From Desulfolutivibrio sulfodismutans DSM 3696 (lineage in GTDB: Bacteria > Desulfobacterota > Desulfovibrionia > Desulfovibrionales > Desulfovibrionaceae), in NCBI RefSeq assembly GCF_013376455.1, contig NZ_CP045504.1, forward strand, positions 3,183,001-3,247,000: DNA of 64,000 nucleotides, in the 5' to 3' direction. Position numbers and translations under genes: made by a program. The notes below the pieces were generated by a model. The model ran no database searches. It saw only the letters and a list, made by a program, of their open reading frames with translations, and was not told the DNA's origin. Shown here piece after piece: positions 14,527-22,300 of this stretch (position 1 is the first letter of the stretch; each line of letters begins with the position of its first letter).

Positions 14527-14553
14527 CTGGCACTCGACGTGGGCGAGTGCTAA
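14527..14553 (+). promoter_or_regulatory. CIRCE operator (HrcA binding site) of groESL
   Basis: CTGGCACTC, nine spacer bases, GAGTGCTAA. The right arm is a perfect match to the CIRCE consensus (TTAGCACTC-N9-GAGTGCTAA) and the left arm matches at seven of nine. It lies in the leader 41 bases before the groES start. HrcA bound here represses chaperonin synthesis until heat or misfolded protein titrates GroEL. The hrcA gene itself is not in the window. Confidence 0.92.
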
Positions 14554-14594: not shown

Positions 14595-14885
14595 ATGAAG
14601 CTTAAACCGCTTGGCGATCGCGTTCTGGTGAAGCGTCTCGAAGAAGAGACGATGACCAAGGGCGGCCTGTACATCCCGGATTCGGCCAAGGAAAAGCCCA
14701 TGAAGGGCGAGATCAAGGCTGTGGGCGACGGCAAACTCGGCGAAGACGGCAAGCGCATGAAGCCCAACGTCAAGGCCGGGGAATTCGTGCTTTTCAACAA
14801 GTACGCCGGGACCGAGATCAAGGTCGAGGACGAGGAATTCCTGATCATGCGCGAGGACGACATCCTCTGCATCATCGAAAAATAG
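14595..14885 (+). CDS. groES: Co-chaperonin GroES
   Basis: 96 residues, the normal length. It begins [18 protein letters not shown], contains the mobile loop ([17 protein letters not shown]) and ends [20 protein letters not shown]. The heptameric lid caps GroEL and helps enclose folding clients in the cytosol. GGAGGT lies ten bases upstream of the ATG. It is co-transcribed with groEL 69 bases downstream, behind a CIRCE element. Confidence 0.98.
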
Positions 14886-14942: not shown

Positions 14943-16595
<1,653 letters not shown>

Positions 16596-16817: not shown

Positions 16818-17441
16818 ATGAAGAGCAGGCTCCTGACGCAAACCGCCAAGGCGATCCTGGCCGTGACCGGCCTCATCACCCTGTCCTTTCTGTTTTTCGA
16901 CCGCCCGGCGGCCTGGTTCGCCCACGGCCTCAAACAGACGGCGGTGTTTGACCTGGCGAAATACGTAAGCCTTACGGCCGACGAGACGTTTTTCTTTTCG
17001 CTTTTGGCCGTAGGCCTGGCTGCAAGCGCCGTGAACCTCCTGGGTTCAACCCCGAAGGACTGGGCGCGCGACCTCCTGTGCATCTGCCTGGCGGTCTGTG
17101 CGGCCATCGCCCTGACGGACTGCCTGAAATTCGTGTTTGGGCGCTGCCGACCGCCCCTTCTTTTCACCGAGGACCGCTACGGCTTCACCTGGTTCACCGT
17201 GAAAAGCGGGTTCACGTCCTTTCCTTCGGGCCACTCCACGCGCATCTTCGCCCTCTGTGCGGCCCTGGCCCTGCGTTTTCGCCGTCTGGCCGGGCCGCTT
17301 CTTCTGGTGGCGGCCATGGTGGGGGTCAGCCGGGTGTTCGCCCTCAGGCATTATCCCTCCGACGTGCTGGCCGGGGCCTTCGTCGGGGTCACGGCCGCCT
17401 GCTGGGCGTGGGCCCTGCGCCGGGTCGGCCCCGGGGCCTGA
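16818..17441 (+). CDS. PAP2-superfamily membrane phosphatase
   Basis: 207 residues from the ATG at 16818, with GGAGG six bases upstream. About five or six membrane segments. The three phosphatase motifs are present: KFVFGRCRPP (K-x6-RP), FPSGHST (PSGH) and SRVFALRHYPSDVLAG (SR-x5-H-x3-D). Such enzymes remove phosphate from undecaprenyl pyrophosphate, phosphatidic acid or related lipids at the outer face of the inner membrane. The substrate cannot be told from sequence. It is a single gene between groESL and a DUF202 gene. Confidence 0.88.
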   Translation: MKSRLLTQTAKAILAVTGLITLSFLFFDRPAAWFAHGLKQTAVFDLAKYVSLTADETFFFSLLAVGLAASAVNLLGSTPKDWARDLLCICLAVCAAIALTDCLKFVFGRCRPPLLFTEDRYGFTWFTVKSGFTSFPSGHSTRIFALCAALALRFRRLAGPLLLVAAMVGVSRVFALRHYPSDVLAGAFVGVTAACWAWALRRVGPGA

Positions 17442-17587
17442 ACCCTCCGCCGTCCGGAAGACGCGGCCGCGACATGCGGGCATCCGGGAGTGTTGTCGCC
17501 GTGTTGCAGACGCCGCCCGCAGCCCCCGGTTTGCCACGGCCTGCCCTTTTGGCTATTGCCTCGCACTGACACCAAAGGGAGCCCGCC

Positions 17588-18013
17588 ATGAAAGACTGCA
17601 CCATCCCCACCACGGCCTTCGACCTGACCAACCCCCAGGTGCTTCTGGCCTGGCAGCGCAACCATCTGGCCAACGAGCGCACCTTTTTGGCATGGTGCCG
17701 CACGGGACTGGCCCTCTTCGCCTTCGGGTTCGTCATCGAGCGCTTCGATTTCTTCATCCGCCAGATGCAGTCCCTGCCCATGTTCGAGGGCCTGACCCGC
17801 AAGCACCTGCACACCGAGGCCATCAGCCTGACCACCTTCGCCGTGGGCGTGGCCGTGATCATCATGGCCGGGTGGCGATTCGCCTATGTGCGCCGCCTCA
17901 TCAACCGGGGCGAGCAGCAGTTTTCGGCCCTGCCGGACATGCTGTTCATGATCTCCATCATGACCATCATCATCAGCCTCTTTGCCGCGTTCTGGCTGCT
18001 GGTGGCCAGGTAG
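17588..18013 (+). CDS. DUF202 family membrane protein
   Basis: 141 residues. The family signature LANERTFLAWCRTGLALFAF is present near residues 25-44, followed by three predicted membrane helices (about 38-55, 78-95 and 117-138). This is the YidH/DUF202 group of small inner-membrane proteins, whose role is not established. AAAGGGAG lies eight bases upstream of the ATG. It ends 11 bases before the cobamide fusion gene, so the two may share a transcript, though no functional link is known. Confidence 0.85.
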   Translation: MKDCTIPTTAFDLTNPQVLLAWQRNHLANERTFLAWCRTGLALFAFGFVIERFDFFIRQMQSLPMFEGLTRKHLHTEAISLTTFAVGVAVIIMAGWRFAYVRRLINRGEQQFSALPDMLFMISIMTIIISLFAAFWLLVAR

Positions 18014-18024
18014 CCCACATCCCC

Positions 18025-20724
18025 ATGCCCCCCATGCCCCCCGTATCTGGCCTCGCGCCCACAACCCACGGCGGCCATGTCCTGGCCCTGGCCGCGTCCA
18101 GCGGCCGTGATCCGGCGGACATCCTGGATTTTTCGGCCAGCATGAACCCGCTCGGGCCGCCGGACGCCCTGCGCCCGATCATCAGCCGCACCGTGTCCGA
18201 CCTGATCCGCTATCCCGACCCGGACAGCGCCGGGCTCCTGGCGGCCGCCAGCCGCCGCTACGGCGTCCCGGTGCAAACGCTTTTGGCCGGAAACGGCACC
18301 AGCGACCTGCTCTTCGCCCTGGCCAGGGCCGCCCGAGGCCCGGTCGGGCCGGTCGGGACGGTCAGGACGGGCGGTGCGGATGGGCCGGTCTGGTCCCGGG
18401 CCGTGGTCGTGGCCCCCTGCTATGTGGACTACCGCCGGGCCTGCGAGCGGGCCGGGCTGGCCGTGACGCCCTTCCTCACATCCCCGGAGGAAGCGTTCGC
18501 TCTGGATTTTGCAGCCCTTGAGGCCGCCCTGCCCGAGTCCCCGGCCCTGGTCTTTCTGGGGCGTCCCCAGAACCCCACCGGACAGAGCTTTCCGGACGCG
18601 CCCCTGCGGGAGCTGGCCGCCCGGCGTCCGGACTGTCTGTTCGTGGTGGACGAGGCCTTTGCCGATTTCGTGCCGGATTTTTTCAGCCTGACCCGGGAGC
18701 GACCGGCCAATGTGGCCGTCTTCTTGTCCCTGACCAAGTCCTTTGCCGTGCCGGGGCTGCGTCTGGGGCTTTTTGCCGCCGATGCGGCCCTTGTCGGCCG
18801 GGTGCGGGAGGAACTGGCCCCCTGGCCGGTCAACGCCCTGGCCCAGGCCGTGGGGGAGGCCTTTCTCGGGGATGCGGACTTTTTGGCCCGTACCAGGACG
18901 GAGACGGCCCGGCTGCGGCAGGCCCTGGCCAGGGGGCTGGCGGAACTGCCCGGGGTGCGGGTGTTCCCGTCCCAGGCCAATTTTTTGTTGTGCTGCCTGG
19001 AGGGCGAGCCGGATGCGGCTCTTGTCCTGCGCGACCGGCTGTTGGCCGGACACGGTGTGGCCATCCGGGCCTGCGCCGATTTCGAGGGCCTGTCCGGCCG
19101 CTTTTTCCGGGTGGCTGTTCGTGGCGACGAAGACAACGCCCGGCTGCTTGCGGCCATGAGGGGATTGCTCGATCCGGCCCGGCTCCGGCCTCAACGGCGG
19201 CATCGGCCGCCCGTGGCGGCCGGGCCGCGCCGGACCCCGGCCATCATGTTCCAGGGCACGACCTCAAACGCCGGGAAGTCCGTCCTGGCCGCCGCCCTGT
19301 GCCGCATCCTGCGCCGCCGGGGCCTGTCCGTGGCCCCGTTCAAGGCCCAGAACATGTCGCTTAATTCCGGGGTCACCCCGGACGGCCTGGAGATGGGCCG
19401 GGCCCAGATCCTCCAGGCCCGGGCCTGCGGCCTGGCCCCCGAGGCGGCCATGAACCCGGTGTTGCTCAAACCCTCCTCGGAGACCGGCTCCCAGGTCATC
19501 GTCCTGGGCCGCCCGGTGGGCAACATGGACGCCCGCACCTATTTCGCCCGCAAGCGCGAGCTTTTTTCCACGGTCACGGCGGCCTACGACGGCCTGGCGG
19601 CCCGCCACGAGGTCATGGTCCTGGAGGGCGCGGGAAGCCCGGCCGAGATCAACCTCATGCGCCACGACATCGTGAACATGGCCATGGCCGCCCATGCCGG
19701 GGCGGCGGTGCTCCTGGTCGCAGACATCGACCGGGGCGGGTCGTTCGCGGCCCTGGCCGGGACCATGGAGCTTTTGCCCGAGGCCGACCGGCGGCGAGTG
19801 GCCGGTTTCGTGCTCAACCGCTTCCGGGGCGATCCCAGGCTTCTGGGCGACGGGCCGGACTTTCTCTGTCGGCTGACGGGCAGGCGGGTGTGGGGCGTTG
19901 TGCCCAACATCGTAAACCTGGAGCTGCCCGAGGAGGATTCGGTGTCGCTCAAGGCCGGGGGGCTTTTGCCCGTGCGCCGGGAGGCCGATCTGGACGTGGC
20001 CGTGATCGATCTGCCGCACCTCTCCAATTTCACGGACTGCGACGCCCTTCTGGTGGAGCCGGATACGGCCGTGCGCCTGGTGCGCGCCCCGGGGGAGGTG
20101 GCCCCCGGCCGCAGGCCCGACGCCCTGATTCTACCCGGCAGCAAGAACACCCTGGCCGACCTGGCCTGGCTGCGGACTGTGGGCCTGGACCGGGAGATCG
20201 CGGCCTGCGCGGCCTCGGGCCGGTGCGAGGTGGTGGGGATCTGCGCCGGGATGCAGATGCTCGGCGACGAGGTGCGCGACCCCACGGGCCTGGAGTCGGG
20301 CCGGGAGCGGGAGGCGGGGCTGGGGCTTTTGCCTCTGGCCACGGAGCTTTTGCCCGAAAAGACCCTGCGCTTCGTGGCGGCGGTCCACCTGCCCAGCGGC
20401 AGCGCGCTTGCGGGTTATGAGATCCACCACGGGACCAGCCGACCGTCGTGCGCCTCCGGGCTTGTGGAGGTCGTGCGCCGCGAGGACGGCCAGGCCCTGG
20501 GGCACGCCCGTCCGGACGGGCTGGCGTGGGGGTCGTACCTGCATGGCCTGTTCGACGCCGACGGCTTTCGCCGCGTCTGGCTGGACGGCCTGCGCCGCCG
20601 CAAGGGCCTTGCCCCCCGGACGGTCCCCACTCCCTACGACCTGGAACCGGCCCTCTCCCGGTTGGCTGACGTGGTGGAGGCGCACCTGGACATGCAGGCC
20701 GTGGCGGCCGTCCTCGGGCTGTGA
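18025..20724 (+). CDS. Fused threonine-phosphate decarboxylase-like aminotransferase (CobD) and cobyric acid synthase (CobQ/CbiP)
   Basis: 899 residues in one frame. Residues about 1-385 form a PLP-dependent class I/II aminotransferase fold of the CobD type: DFSASMNPLGPP, GNGTSDLLFAL, NPTGQ and the Schiff-base Lys238 in SLTKSFAVPGLRLG. A short Arg/Pro-rich linker follows. Residues about 406-899 are CobQ: an ATP-binding FQGTTSNAGKS, KAQNMSLNSG, the glutaminase nucleophile Cys740 in GICAGMQMLG and His840 in GSYLHGLFD. CobQ amidates adenosylcobyrinic acid diamide at four side chains; CobD supplies aminopropanol phosphate for the next step, so fusion joins consecutive inputs of cobamide synthesis. 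Start choice between 18025 and 18034 is uncertain because the ribosome site is weak. Confidence 0.9.
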   Translation: MPPMPPVSGLAPTTHGGHVLALAASSGRDPADILDFSASMNPLGPPDALRPIISRTVSDLIRYPDPDSAGLLAAASRRYGVPVQTLLAGNGTSDLLFALARAARGPVGPVGTVRTGGADGPVWSRAVVVAPCYVDYRRACERAGLAVTPFLTSPEEAFALDFAALEAALPESPALVFLGRPQNPTGQSFPDAPLRELAARRPDCLFVVDEAFADFVPDFFSLTRERPANVAVFLSLTKSFAVPGLRLGLFAADAALVGRVREELAPWPVNALAQAVGEAFLGDADFLARTRTETARLRQALARGLAELPGVRVFPSQANFLLCCLEGEPDAALVLRDRLLAGHGVAIRACADFEGLSGRFFRVAVRGDEDNARLLAAMRGLLDPARLRPQRRHRPPVAAGPRRTPAIMFQGTTSNAGKSVLAAALCRILRRRGLSVAPFKAQNMSLNSGVTPDGLEMGRAQILQARACGLAPEAAMNPVLLKPSSETGSQVIVLGRPVGNMDARTYFARKRELFSTVTAAYDGLAARHEVMVLEGAGSPAEINLMRHDIVNMAMAAHAGAAVLLVADIDRGGSFAALAGTMELLPEADRRRVAGFVLNRFRGDPRLLGDGPDFLCRLTGRRVWGVVPNIVNLELPEEDSVSLKAGGLLPVRREADLDVAVIDLPHLSNFTDCDALLVEPDTAVRLVRAPGEVAPGRRPDALILPGSKNTLADLAWLRTVGLDREIAACAASGRCEVVGICAGMQMLGDEVRDPTGLESGREREAGLGLLPLATELLPEKTLRFVAAVHLPSGSALAGYEIHHGTSRPSCASGLVEVVRREDGQALGHARPDGLAWGSYLHGLFDADGFRRVWLDGLRRRKGLAPRTVPTPYDLEPALSRLADVVEAHLDMQAVAAVLGL

Positions 20725-20988: not shown

Positions 20989-21387
20989 CTACTTGGCCGC
21001 AGCCGCTCCGCAGCCGCTGCACGCGGTGGCGCAGGACGCGGCGGCCGGGGCCTTGTCGCCCGACGTCCCGGACGCGGAGGGCGCGGCGGACGCGGGGGAC
21101 GCGGGGGACGTGGAATCGGACGCAGCGGATGCGGAATCGGACGCGGCGCCGCTGTCCTTGCCCTTGGCGCCGGACTCTCCGTTGCCGCCTGACTCGGCCC
21201 CGCCGTGGCGGTTGCAATAGTCGGTCACGTACCAGCCCGAGCCCTTGAGCACGAAGGACGTGTTGGAGATGATCCGCTTCGAGTCCCCGCCGCAGGCCGG
21301 ACAGGCTTCCGTGCGTTCTTCAAAGCCGCGTTGAATCTTTTCAAACACCTTGTCGCAGTCCTGGCAGCGGTATTCATAGATCGGCAT
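20989..21387 (-). CDS. FmdB-family zinc ribbon protein with Ala/Ser-rich tail
   Basis: 132 residues. The first 55 are the FmdB/CxxC_CxxC zinc ribbon: MPIYEYRCQDCDKVF with a second pair CPACGG, then SNTSFVLKGSGWYVTDY. Residues about 62-125 are a Ser/Ala/Asp/Gly-rich low-complexity region, and the end carries four more cysteines (SCATACSGCGAAAAK). The family name comes from a putative regulator of formamidase; its true role is unclear and the zinc ribbon could bind RNA, DNA or protein. GGAGAAAAGAC precedes the ATG. The gene has a long leader and a promoter with a CIRCE-like operator. Confidence 0.85.
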   Translation of the reverse strand: MPIYEYRCQDCDKVFEKIQRGFEERTEACPACGGDSKRIISNTSFVLKGSGWYVTDYCNRHGGAESGGNGESGAKGKDSGAASDSASAASDSTSPASPASAAPSASGTSGDKAPAAASCATACSGCGAAAAK

Positions 21388-21533
21388 GTCTTTTCTCCAC
21401 GAGATGCATGGCTTACGTGATCAGTGGTCCGCCGAGGCCCCGGCGGGCCTGCGGCGACGGTCCCGTATTCCCTTGAAAGCGTGCGGCGCTATTGCCGTAA
21501 CCGTATGAGATCGTTTGTATTTCACAAAAAAAG

Positions 21534-21560
21534 CTGGCACTTGGCGTGTGCGAGCGCCAA
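21534..21560 (-). promoter_or_regulatory. CIRCE-like inverted repeat in the leader of the fmdB-like gene
   Basis: Read on the minus strand: TTGGCGCTC, nine spacer bases, AAGTGCCAG. Spacing equals CIRCE; the arms match the consensus at seven and six of nine. It begins one base after the -10 of a good promoter, as in groESL. Its plus-strand left arm (CTGGCACTT) differs by one base from the left arm of the groESL operator (CTGGCACTC). Confidence 0.6.
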
Positions 21561-21561
21561 A

Positions 21562-21589
21562 TAGATAATCGATGAATCGCCCCAGTCAA
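21562..21589 (-). promoter_or_regulatory. Promoter upstream of the fmdB-like gene
   Basis: On the minus strand TTGACT (21584-21589) and TATCTA (21562-21567) are 16 bases apart. The leader would be about 165 bases and starts with the CIRCE-like repeat. Confidence 0.55.
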
Positions 21590-21898
21590 GGGGGGAAAGG
21601 GCGGTTATTTTGCTGGAATACCTGAAAATACGGCGGGTTGTGGAAAAAATACGGGTGGCGGAGAAAAGATGGCACCCCGGGAAAAGCAGAGGTGGGGTTG
21701 TGGGTATGGGGTGACGTCTGTCGCGGCCACGGCCCCGGCAGGGGAAGCGTCCCTTCCCCATGCCAGGGTCATGCCTGCGGGATCATGCCACGTCTTTGGA
21801 AACATGCCCGCTGCATCCCGATACGATCAGCCAGTGCGCATTCTCTCTCAACACCCCGTCGCCCAGGGACGCCGCGCCGGGCAGGCGATCCGGACGCA
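21590..21898. other. Intergenic stretch without recognisable gene
   Basis: This gap separates the fmdB promoter from the mucR-like stop codon. The frames running through it lack ribosome sites and family signatures. No terminator with a T tract was found for the mucR-like gene. Confidence 0.5.
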
Positions 21899-22300
21899 CT
21901 ACTTCTTTTTCGTCCTTTTCTCCCACAGCTTCATTTCCTTCATCTTCTTGCGACGCTCACGCTGCAACTCTTTGCACACCAGGGGCAGGTTCTTGGCGTA
22001 ACCCCATTTTTCCCTGTATTCGGCGGGCGTCATGCCATACTTGGCCAGATGCCGCTTGGTCAGAATCTTGAAAGACTTTCCGGATTCAAGACACACGATG
22101 CTCTTTTCCCGGATGGCCTTTTTGGGGTCCATGATCGGGGCTTTCTCCTCGACTTCCGCTTCCGGAGCCGTGCCTTCGCTGATGCTCTTGATGCCTTCGG
22201 CCAGTTTCGTGACCATGGAGGTGAGCTCCTCCTCGGTCATTGTGCGCACGCTGGCTTGAGCCTTGACGATGTCAAGGGCTTGTTTCAGATAATCATCCAT
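21899..22300 (-). CDS. MucR/Ros-family transcriptional regulator
   Basis: 133 residues. The C-terminal half matches MucR: SIVCLESGKSFKILTKRHL, then MTPAEYREKWG, then a very basic end (RERRKKMKEMKLWEKRTKKK). The first zinc Cys (Cys70) and His84 are kept, but the second Cys of the usual C-x2-C is Ser73, so the zinc site may be incomplete or rebuilt. The N-terminal half is acidic and helical and probably drives oligomerisation. MucR proteins are H-NS-like repressors of AT-rich targets in alphaproteobacteria; desulfovibrios have several homologues. GGGAGGT precedes the ATG. A minus-strand TTGACA lies upstream (22374-22379) but a TACAAT box is 20 bases away, longer than ideal. Confidence 0.85.
   Translation of the reverse strand: MDDYLKQALDIVKAQASVRTMTEEELTSMVTKLAEGIKSISEGTAPEAEVEEKAPIMDPKKAIREKSIVCLESGKSFKILTKRHLAKYGMTPAEYREKWGYAKNLPLVCKELQRERRKKMKEMKLWEKRTKKK

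Follow-up and report, generated by a model that had tools for sequence, protein, structure and literature searches.

HrcA is a repressor whose repression lifts when GroE is occupied, and the regulons usually described for it consist of chaperone genes and hrcA itself. In the window, which is the whole 64,000 nt stretch of Desulfolutivibrio sulfodismutans DSM 3696 DNA analysed here, an inverted repeat resembling the HrcA operator CIRCE lies over the predicted promoter of fmdB, a gene for a zinc ribbon protein. This poses the question whether HrcA also controls a gene that is neither a chaperone gene nor its own. We consider it very probable that the repeat is an HrcA operator of diverged sequence, lying over the promoter of fmdB, by which HrcA would repress the gene and heat stress would release it. 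An initial annotation of the locus had read the repeat in the same way, and this reading is now supported by the presence of hrcA, by conservation of the site in 17 of 17 genomes and by a shared sequence pattern. The features on which the argument draws are the following.

14527-14553: groESL CIRCE, which serves as the window's reference site (arm and pattern match).
14595-14885, plus strand: groES (PF00166).
14955-16595, plus strand: groEL (ORF; the DNA matches groL genes).
20989-21387, minus strand: fmdB, A copy, 132 aa, with N-terminal zinc ribbon and cysteine-rich tail (PF09723, TIGR02605, tail motif).
21388-21533, minus strand: leader from the operator to the fmdB start codon (ATG), 146 nt.
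21534-21560: CIRCE-like operator, with arms TTGGCGCTC and AAGTGCCAG on the minus strand (sequence, pattern, matrix, conservation).
21560-21552, minus strand: operator left arm, TTGGCGCTC.
21551-21543, minus strand: operator spacer, GCACACGCC.
21542-21534, minus strand: operator right arm, AAGTGCCAG.
21562-21567, minus strand: predicted -10, TATCTA (sequence; position kept in related genomes; absent from the sigma-70 scan list).
21584-21589, minus strand: predicted -35, TTGACT (sequence; kept in 17 of 17 genomes, with the operator 23-24 nt further on).
21899-22300, minus strand: gene of a Ros/MucR-family regulator (PF05443), upstream of fmdB; a neighbour marker outside the proposed mechanism.

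The repeat is real, and the initial annotation had its sequence and coordinates right. As stated there, a single base sets its left arm on the plus strand (CTGGCACTT) apart from that of groESL (CTGGCACTC); a correction to add is that the left arm on the minus strand reads GCGCTC in all 17 genomes. On the minus strand, TTGACT and TATCTA are spaced by 16 nt, and a single T then separates TATCTA from the operator. The further claim, that layout and spacing are the same as at the groESL promoter, does not hold. At groESL, the best promoter match by eye (TTGCCT-N15-TAGATT) ends 15 nt before the CIRCE, compared with a gap of 1 nt at fmdB. Instead, the fmdB layout resembles the hrcA promoter rather than that of groESL, with 24 nt between -35 and operator at hrcA and 23-24 nt at fmdB. 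TATCTA agrees with TATAAT at three of six positions, and a sigma-70 scan of 21380-21900 did not include the TTGACT/TATCTA promoter among those it listed, so the promoter call rests on conservation. The operator is located over or just after this predicted core promoter and before the gene, which is the placement expected of an HrcA/CIRCE operator. As it starts one base after the predicted -10, the invariant G at position 6 of the left arm would fall near +1. We also considered an inner dyad, TTGGCG-N8-CGCCAA, as the operator. It is made from exactly the two deviating bases and is perfect in all three genomes of the window's genus, but it occurs in none of 14 genomes of a second genus, and this candidate was rejected.

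How closely the site resembles CIRCE was assessed against the consensus, TTAGCACTC-N9-GAGTGCTAA (PMC545781, PMC7464140). We searched with the pattern YTRGCACTC-N9-GAGTGCYAR, allowing at most two mismatches over the 18 arm positions, with the reversed pattern as a control. Among the matches listed, the window genome has exactly three sites, at hrcA, groESL and fmdB, and the reversed control has none. Both other genomes of the genus (G001 and G002) have the identical three targets among the matches listed, with one and no reversed-control matches, respectively. Over 59 genomes, the reversed control gave 26 places among the matches listed, or 0.44 per genome. With two mismatches, the fmdB site lies within the limit of the search, and by matrix score it is weaker than the groESL and hrcA sites. 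The bare 6+6 core with two mismatches is found at 68 places, against 130 for its reversed control; because such a search operates at chance level, full arms and conservation were used instead.

A half-site matrix was built from 29 groESL and hrcA sites outside the window's genus (58 half-sites), all with at most one mismatch; the hrcA sites L090 and L093, with two mismatches, and sites lacking a fetched locus were left out. Scoring with a CIRCE matrix had been proposed in the initial annotation, and it places the fmdB site, at 19.6, well above the other non-groESL places in the window: groESL scores 30.5 and the next best place -2.6. Under a Markov-1 model, 0.44 places scoring 18 or more are expected per 4.44 Mb, and none scored 20 or more in 20 Mb. 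The 35 groESL and hrcA sites range from 24.7 to 34.8, and one groESL site of the second genus, at 23.4, is the lowest seen. The fmdB sites score 19.6 in two genomes of the window's genus and 23.9 in G001; in the second genus they score 12.0 in 12 genomes, 6.1 in one and 24.7 in G297. The sites of G001 and G297 thus fall inside the groESL/hrcA range. In 13 of the 14 second-genus genomes the score is thus 12.0 or 6.1, while 1.8 places scoring 12 or more are expected by chance per genome; the case in that genus rests on conservation. Weak matches by themselves mean little, because 10 of 20 regions fetched around such matches in other genomes had no groES, groEL, hrcA or fmdB nearby (these negatives comprise nine two-mismatch matches and one one-mismatch match). 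By itself, the fmdB repeat is a weak CIRCE match; it is the comparison between genomes that makes the case for this candidate operator convincing.

In G002, whose FmdB protein is 88% identical, no base differs between TTGACT and the end of the repeat. In G001 (61% identical), the spacer has two base differences and the distal arm reads AAGTGCTAA. When 288 genomes of the family were searched by pattern, 11 matched, including G297 of the second genus, where the site again stands before fmdB. All 14 genomes of this second genus carry TTGGCGCTC-N9-GAG(T/C)GC before the orthologous fmdB, 23-24 nt after TTGACT. The right arm contains AAGTGC in the window's genus and is GAGTGCTGC in 12 second-genus genomes, GAGCGCTGC in one and GAGTGCCAA in one, while the left arm TTGGCGCTC with its half-site GCGCTC is invariant in all 17 genomes, the consensus A never being present. 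Over 12 non-redundant second-genus sequences, the mean majority fraction is 1.00 in the left arm, 0.96 in the right arm and 0.66 in the spacer; in the flanks it is 0.65 over 40 nt upstream and 0.51 over 33 nt downstream. The site is thus kept before 17 of 17 A-copy fmdB genes, and in the 12 sequences the arms are more conserved than the spacer, as would be expected of an HrcA/CIRCE operator. These profiles bear on the idea that the core promoter alone is conserved and that the likeness to CIRCE is due to chance. Such a view would agree with the chance-level match of the bare core and with the unchanged promoter block between the window genome and G002. However, in the second genus the conservation of the two arms, which are separated by 9 bp, far exceeds that of promoter spacer, N9 spacer and leader, and the distal arm sits downstream of any core promoter element, leaving this explanation with a negligible probability.

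The initial annotation had made its reading depend on conservation upstream of fmdB orthologues. This conservation is found in both genera that have the A paralogue (17 of 17) and not beyond them: by matrix scoring, none of the 44 fmdB loci scored in other genera has the site, nor do the three B-copy fmdB loci of the window's genus, with a best score of 0.9 over both sets. Upstream scoring left out L040, which has a short upstream region, and L048-L053 and L210-L223, where no start was recognised. L210-L223 are the second fmdB copies of the second genus, and none of the 53 places found there by a relaxed pattern (see below) falls at them. In a scan of named genomes, in which the window's genus is not among the matches listed, the 80 loci among the matches listed have no CIRCE match with fewer than five mismatches in the 400 bp upstream.

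A repeat at this position could also act in the transcript, as a 5' hairpin, attenuator or early terminator. The arms can pair if G-U is permitted, and a T-run follows them in the window, where one terminator-like site is seen against 0.5 expected, and in G001. Three second-genus leaders (z -3.30, -3.00 and -2.18) and that of G002 (z -2.33) fold better than shuffles, which an inverted repeat will do in any case. In G002, however, the T-run is shorter, and all 14 second-genus sequences lack it, a distribution that fits neither a terminator nor an attenuator. Moreover, the folding of the leaders in the window and in G001 is barely better than that of shuffles (z -0.99 and -1.45), and the base pairs of the spacer show no covariation in excess of shuffles (0.56). 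We therefore regard a role as RNA as highly improbable.

If the repeat is a protein-binding site, the next point is which protein would bind it. The window genome has one HrcA-family gene (one PF01628 match), with a full-consensus CIRCE just before it, and a CIRCE accompanies hrcA in three of three genomes of the genus and in all 14 second-genus genomes. With the relaxed pattern RGCRCTC-N9-GAGYGCY, 53 places are found in these 14 second-genus genomes, against four for its reversed control. These comprise 14 fmdB, 14 hrcA, 13 groESL and 12 other places, so that 41 of 53 are at fmdB, hrcA or groESL. All six of the other places that were examined lie inside mechanically called ORFs of more than 150 codons, one in G286 near the ORF start. 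Pattern matches in both genera are those at hrcA, groESL and fmdB, plus the 12 others in the second genus.

Another repressor with a CIRCE-like half-site may nevertheless act at fmdB in place of HrcA. This would suit the invariance of TTGGCGCTC in 17 of 17 genomes, whose G at position 6 contrasts with the A of 57 of 58 reference half-sites, and the outer right arm TGC in 13 of 14 second-genus genomes, which is unlike CIRCE. Yet only a single HrcA-family gene was found in the window genome, the relaxed pattern also picks up hrcA and groESL in the genomes where it finds fmdB, and no private regulon is seen: the element with at most three mismatches occurs once in each of the three genomes of the genus and is missing from the remaining 56. 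In addition, each of the two arm deviations has counterparts at groESL or hrcA of other genomes in the order. An exact TTGGCGCTC-N9-GAGTGC is present in 19 of 348 genomes of the order, 13 times at second-genus fmdB, five times at groESL of another family and once inside an ORF. As these five exact matches stand at groESL, and GCGCTC is the groESL half-site in five of five genomes of that family having it, GCGCTC serves in groESL sites. The deviating AAGTGC is likewise present at groESL of G036, G037 and G046 and at hrcA of G040. Another repressor is thus an unlikely, though not a negligible, alternative to HrcA. The non-consensus G at position 6 may reflect a purposely weak operator, a constraint on initiation or another repressor.

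Some further observations concern the same sequences. The five groESL matches (L278-L282) belong to one genus, in which the GCGCTC half-site lies within the groESL CIRCE. A perfect TTGGCGCTC-N9-AAGTGCCAG is found at L192 (G206:C151:28245-28271), where TTGACA closely precedes it and a 399-codon ORF with no relation to fmdB follows; it may be another HrcA target or a chance match. The distance between the groESL and fmdB operators is 7-12 kb in the window genome, in G002 and in eight second-genus genomes and 23 kb in G293, whereas in G001 and G287 the two lie far from each other.

The protein downstream of the repeat is a clear member of its family, scoring 59.1 bits against Zn_ribbon_8 (PF09723; cut-off 34.4) and 67.6 bits against TIGR02605 (cut-off 31.3), while no solved structure matched it at E ≤ 1. 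Among the matches listed, 18 of 265 matching genomes have two fmdB copies at E ≤ 1e-12, with at most 14 candidates scored per genome: all three genomes of the window's genus, all 14 second-genus genomes, and G025. The A copies that carry the operator, 17 in number, group in a single clade with a support of 0.775 (60 proteins, L028 being absent, first 75 residues, FastTree, midpoint root). The putative operator is that of an extra fmdB paralogue, the A copy. A tail motif, C-x3-8-C-x2-3-C, is present in 17 of 17 A copies (20989-21387 of the window, L013, L016 and L196-L209 among them) and in none of the 17 B copies or 43 other-genus proteins (0 of 60 together). The latter figure covers 43 of 45 other-genus loci, and two of these 43 proteins have four tail cysteines without the motif.

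The gene neighbourhood was compared as well. Within the flank covered, a MucR-family gene lies near fmdB at three of three loci of the genus and seven of 14 of the second genus, and a cobQ-like gene at three of three and 10 of 14; at least one of the two is present at 11 of 14 second-genus loci, and the remaining three include one short locus. In the window, a single plus-strand ORF at 17257-20724 contains Aminotran_1_2 followed by CbiA and GATase_3, an apparent fusion that is convergent with fmdB. A regular expression finds a short and highly basic ORF (about 35-41 codons; M-x-R/K-H-K-K/R-x-E-R-x-K-E-L-D-R-R-R...) upstream of the B-copy fmdB at 17 of 17 loci (L045-L047 and L210-L223). It also precedes fmdB at 20 of 26 other-genus loci and stands before no A copy; one example had no Pfam match.

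Taken together, these comparisons suggest a model in which the HrcA regulon of this lineage would consist of hrcA, groESL and fmdB. HrcA would bind the diverged CIRCE over the expected fmdB transcription start and block the promoter. When stress occupies GroEL/ES, HrcA would lose activity, and fmdB would be expressed together with groESL and hrcA. We infer binding, repression and heat release at fmdB from general knowledge of HrcA. A study on Campylobacter describes HrcA footprints around CIRCE-like repeats that overlie the start site, and its authors presume that they impede RNA polymerase (PMC7464140). More speculatively, the fmdB duplicate may have gained the HrcA operator and the second cysteine cluster together, and have become a stress-induced zinc/thiol protein beside GroE, with the weak half-site (G for A, near the expected +1) kept by selection for release before groESL, which would make the HrcA response a graded one. 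We put this forward as a tentative and rather doubtful scenario, for which Hsp33 offers a comparison.

HrcA control of fmdB was not found in the open-licence literature, as covered by titles and abstract openings. In a 2004 reconstruction, groESL is the sole CIRCE target in its two Desulfovibrio genomes and the only constant member of the HrcA regulon in delta-proteobacteria (PMC545781). A conserved non-chaperone target of HrcA would give a direct lead to the role of some FmdB-type proteins, which may be stress-linked and perhaps thiol-based. Furthermore, graded release would become testable, with a single repressor acting in one cell on natural operators that differ in strength, some weak and some strong.

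Compared with known systems, the FmdB protein shares with other members of its family (PF09723, TIGR02605) the N-terminal ribbon with two CxxC pairs. It differs in the C-x3-8-C-x2-3-C tail of the A copy, which is absent from its paralogue and from the 43 other-genus homologues compared. For FmdB-family members with CxxU among marine selenoproteins, a thiol redox role has been suggested (PMC2398784). The predicted fmdB promoter is similar to the hrcA promoter of the same genome in that the operator lies 24 nt past the -35 there and 23-24 nt past it at fmdB. In contrast, the hrcA operator has the full consensus and its gene starts soon after, whereas the fmdB leader is 146 nt long. With CIRCE/HrcA operators, the fmdB site has in common the 9-bp arms and 9-bp spacer, the position over the expected start, the occurrence in the same genomes and arms that are identical within one or two bases. 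It differs from them in that the left half-site is always GCGCTC, that the right arm contains AAGTGC or is mostly GAGTGCTGC, depending on the genus, and that its target is neither a chaperone nor a heat-shock regulator gene.
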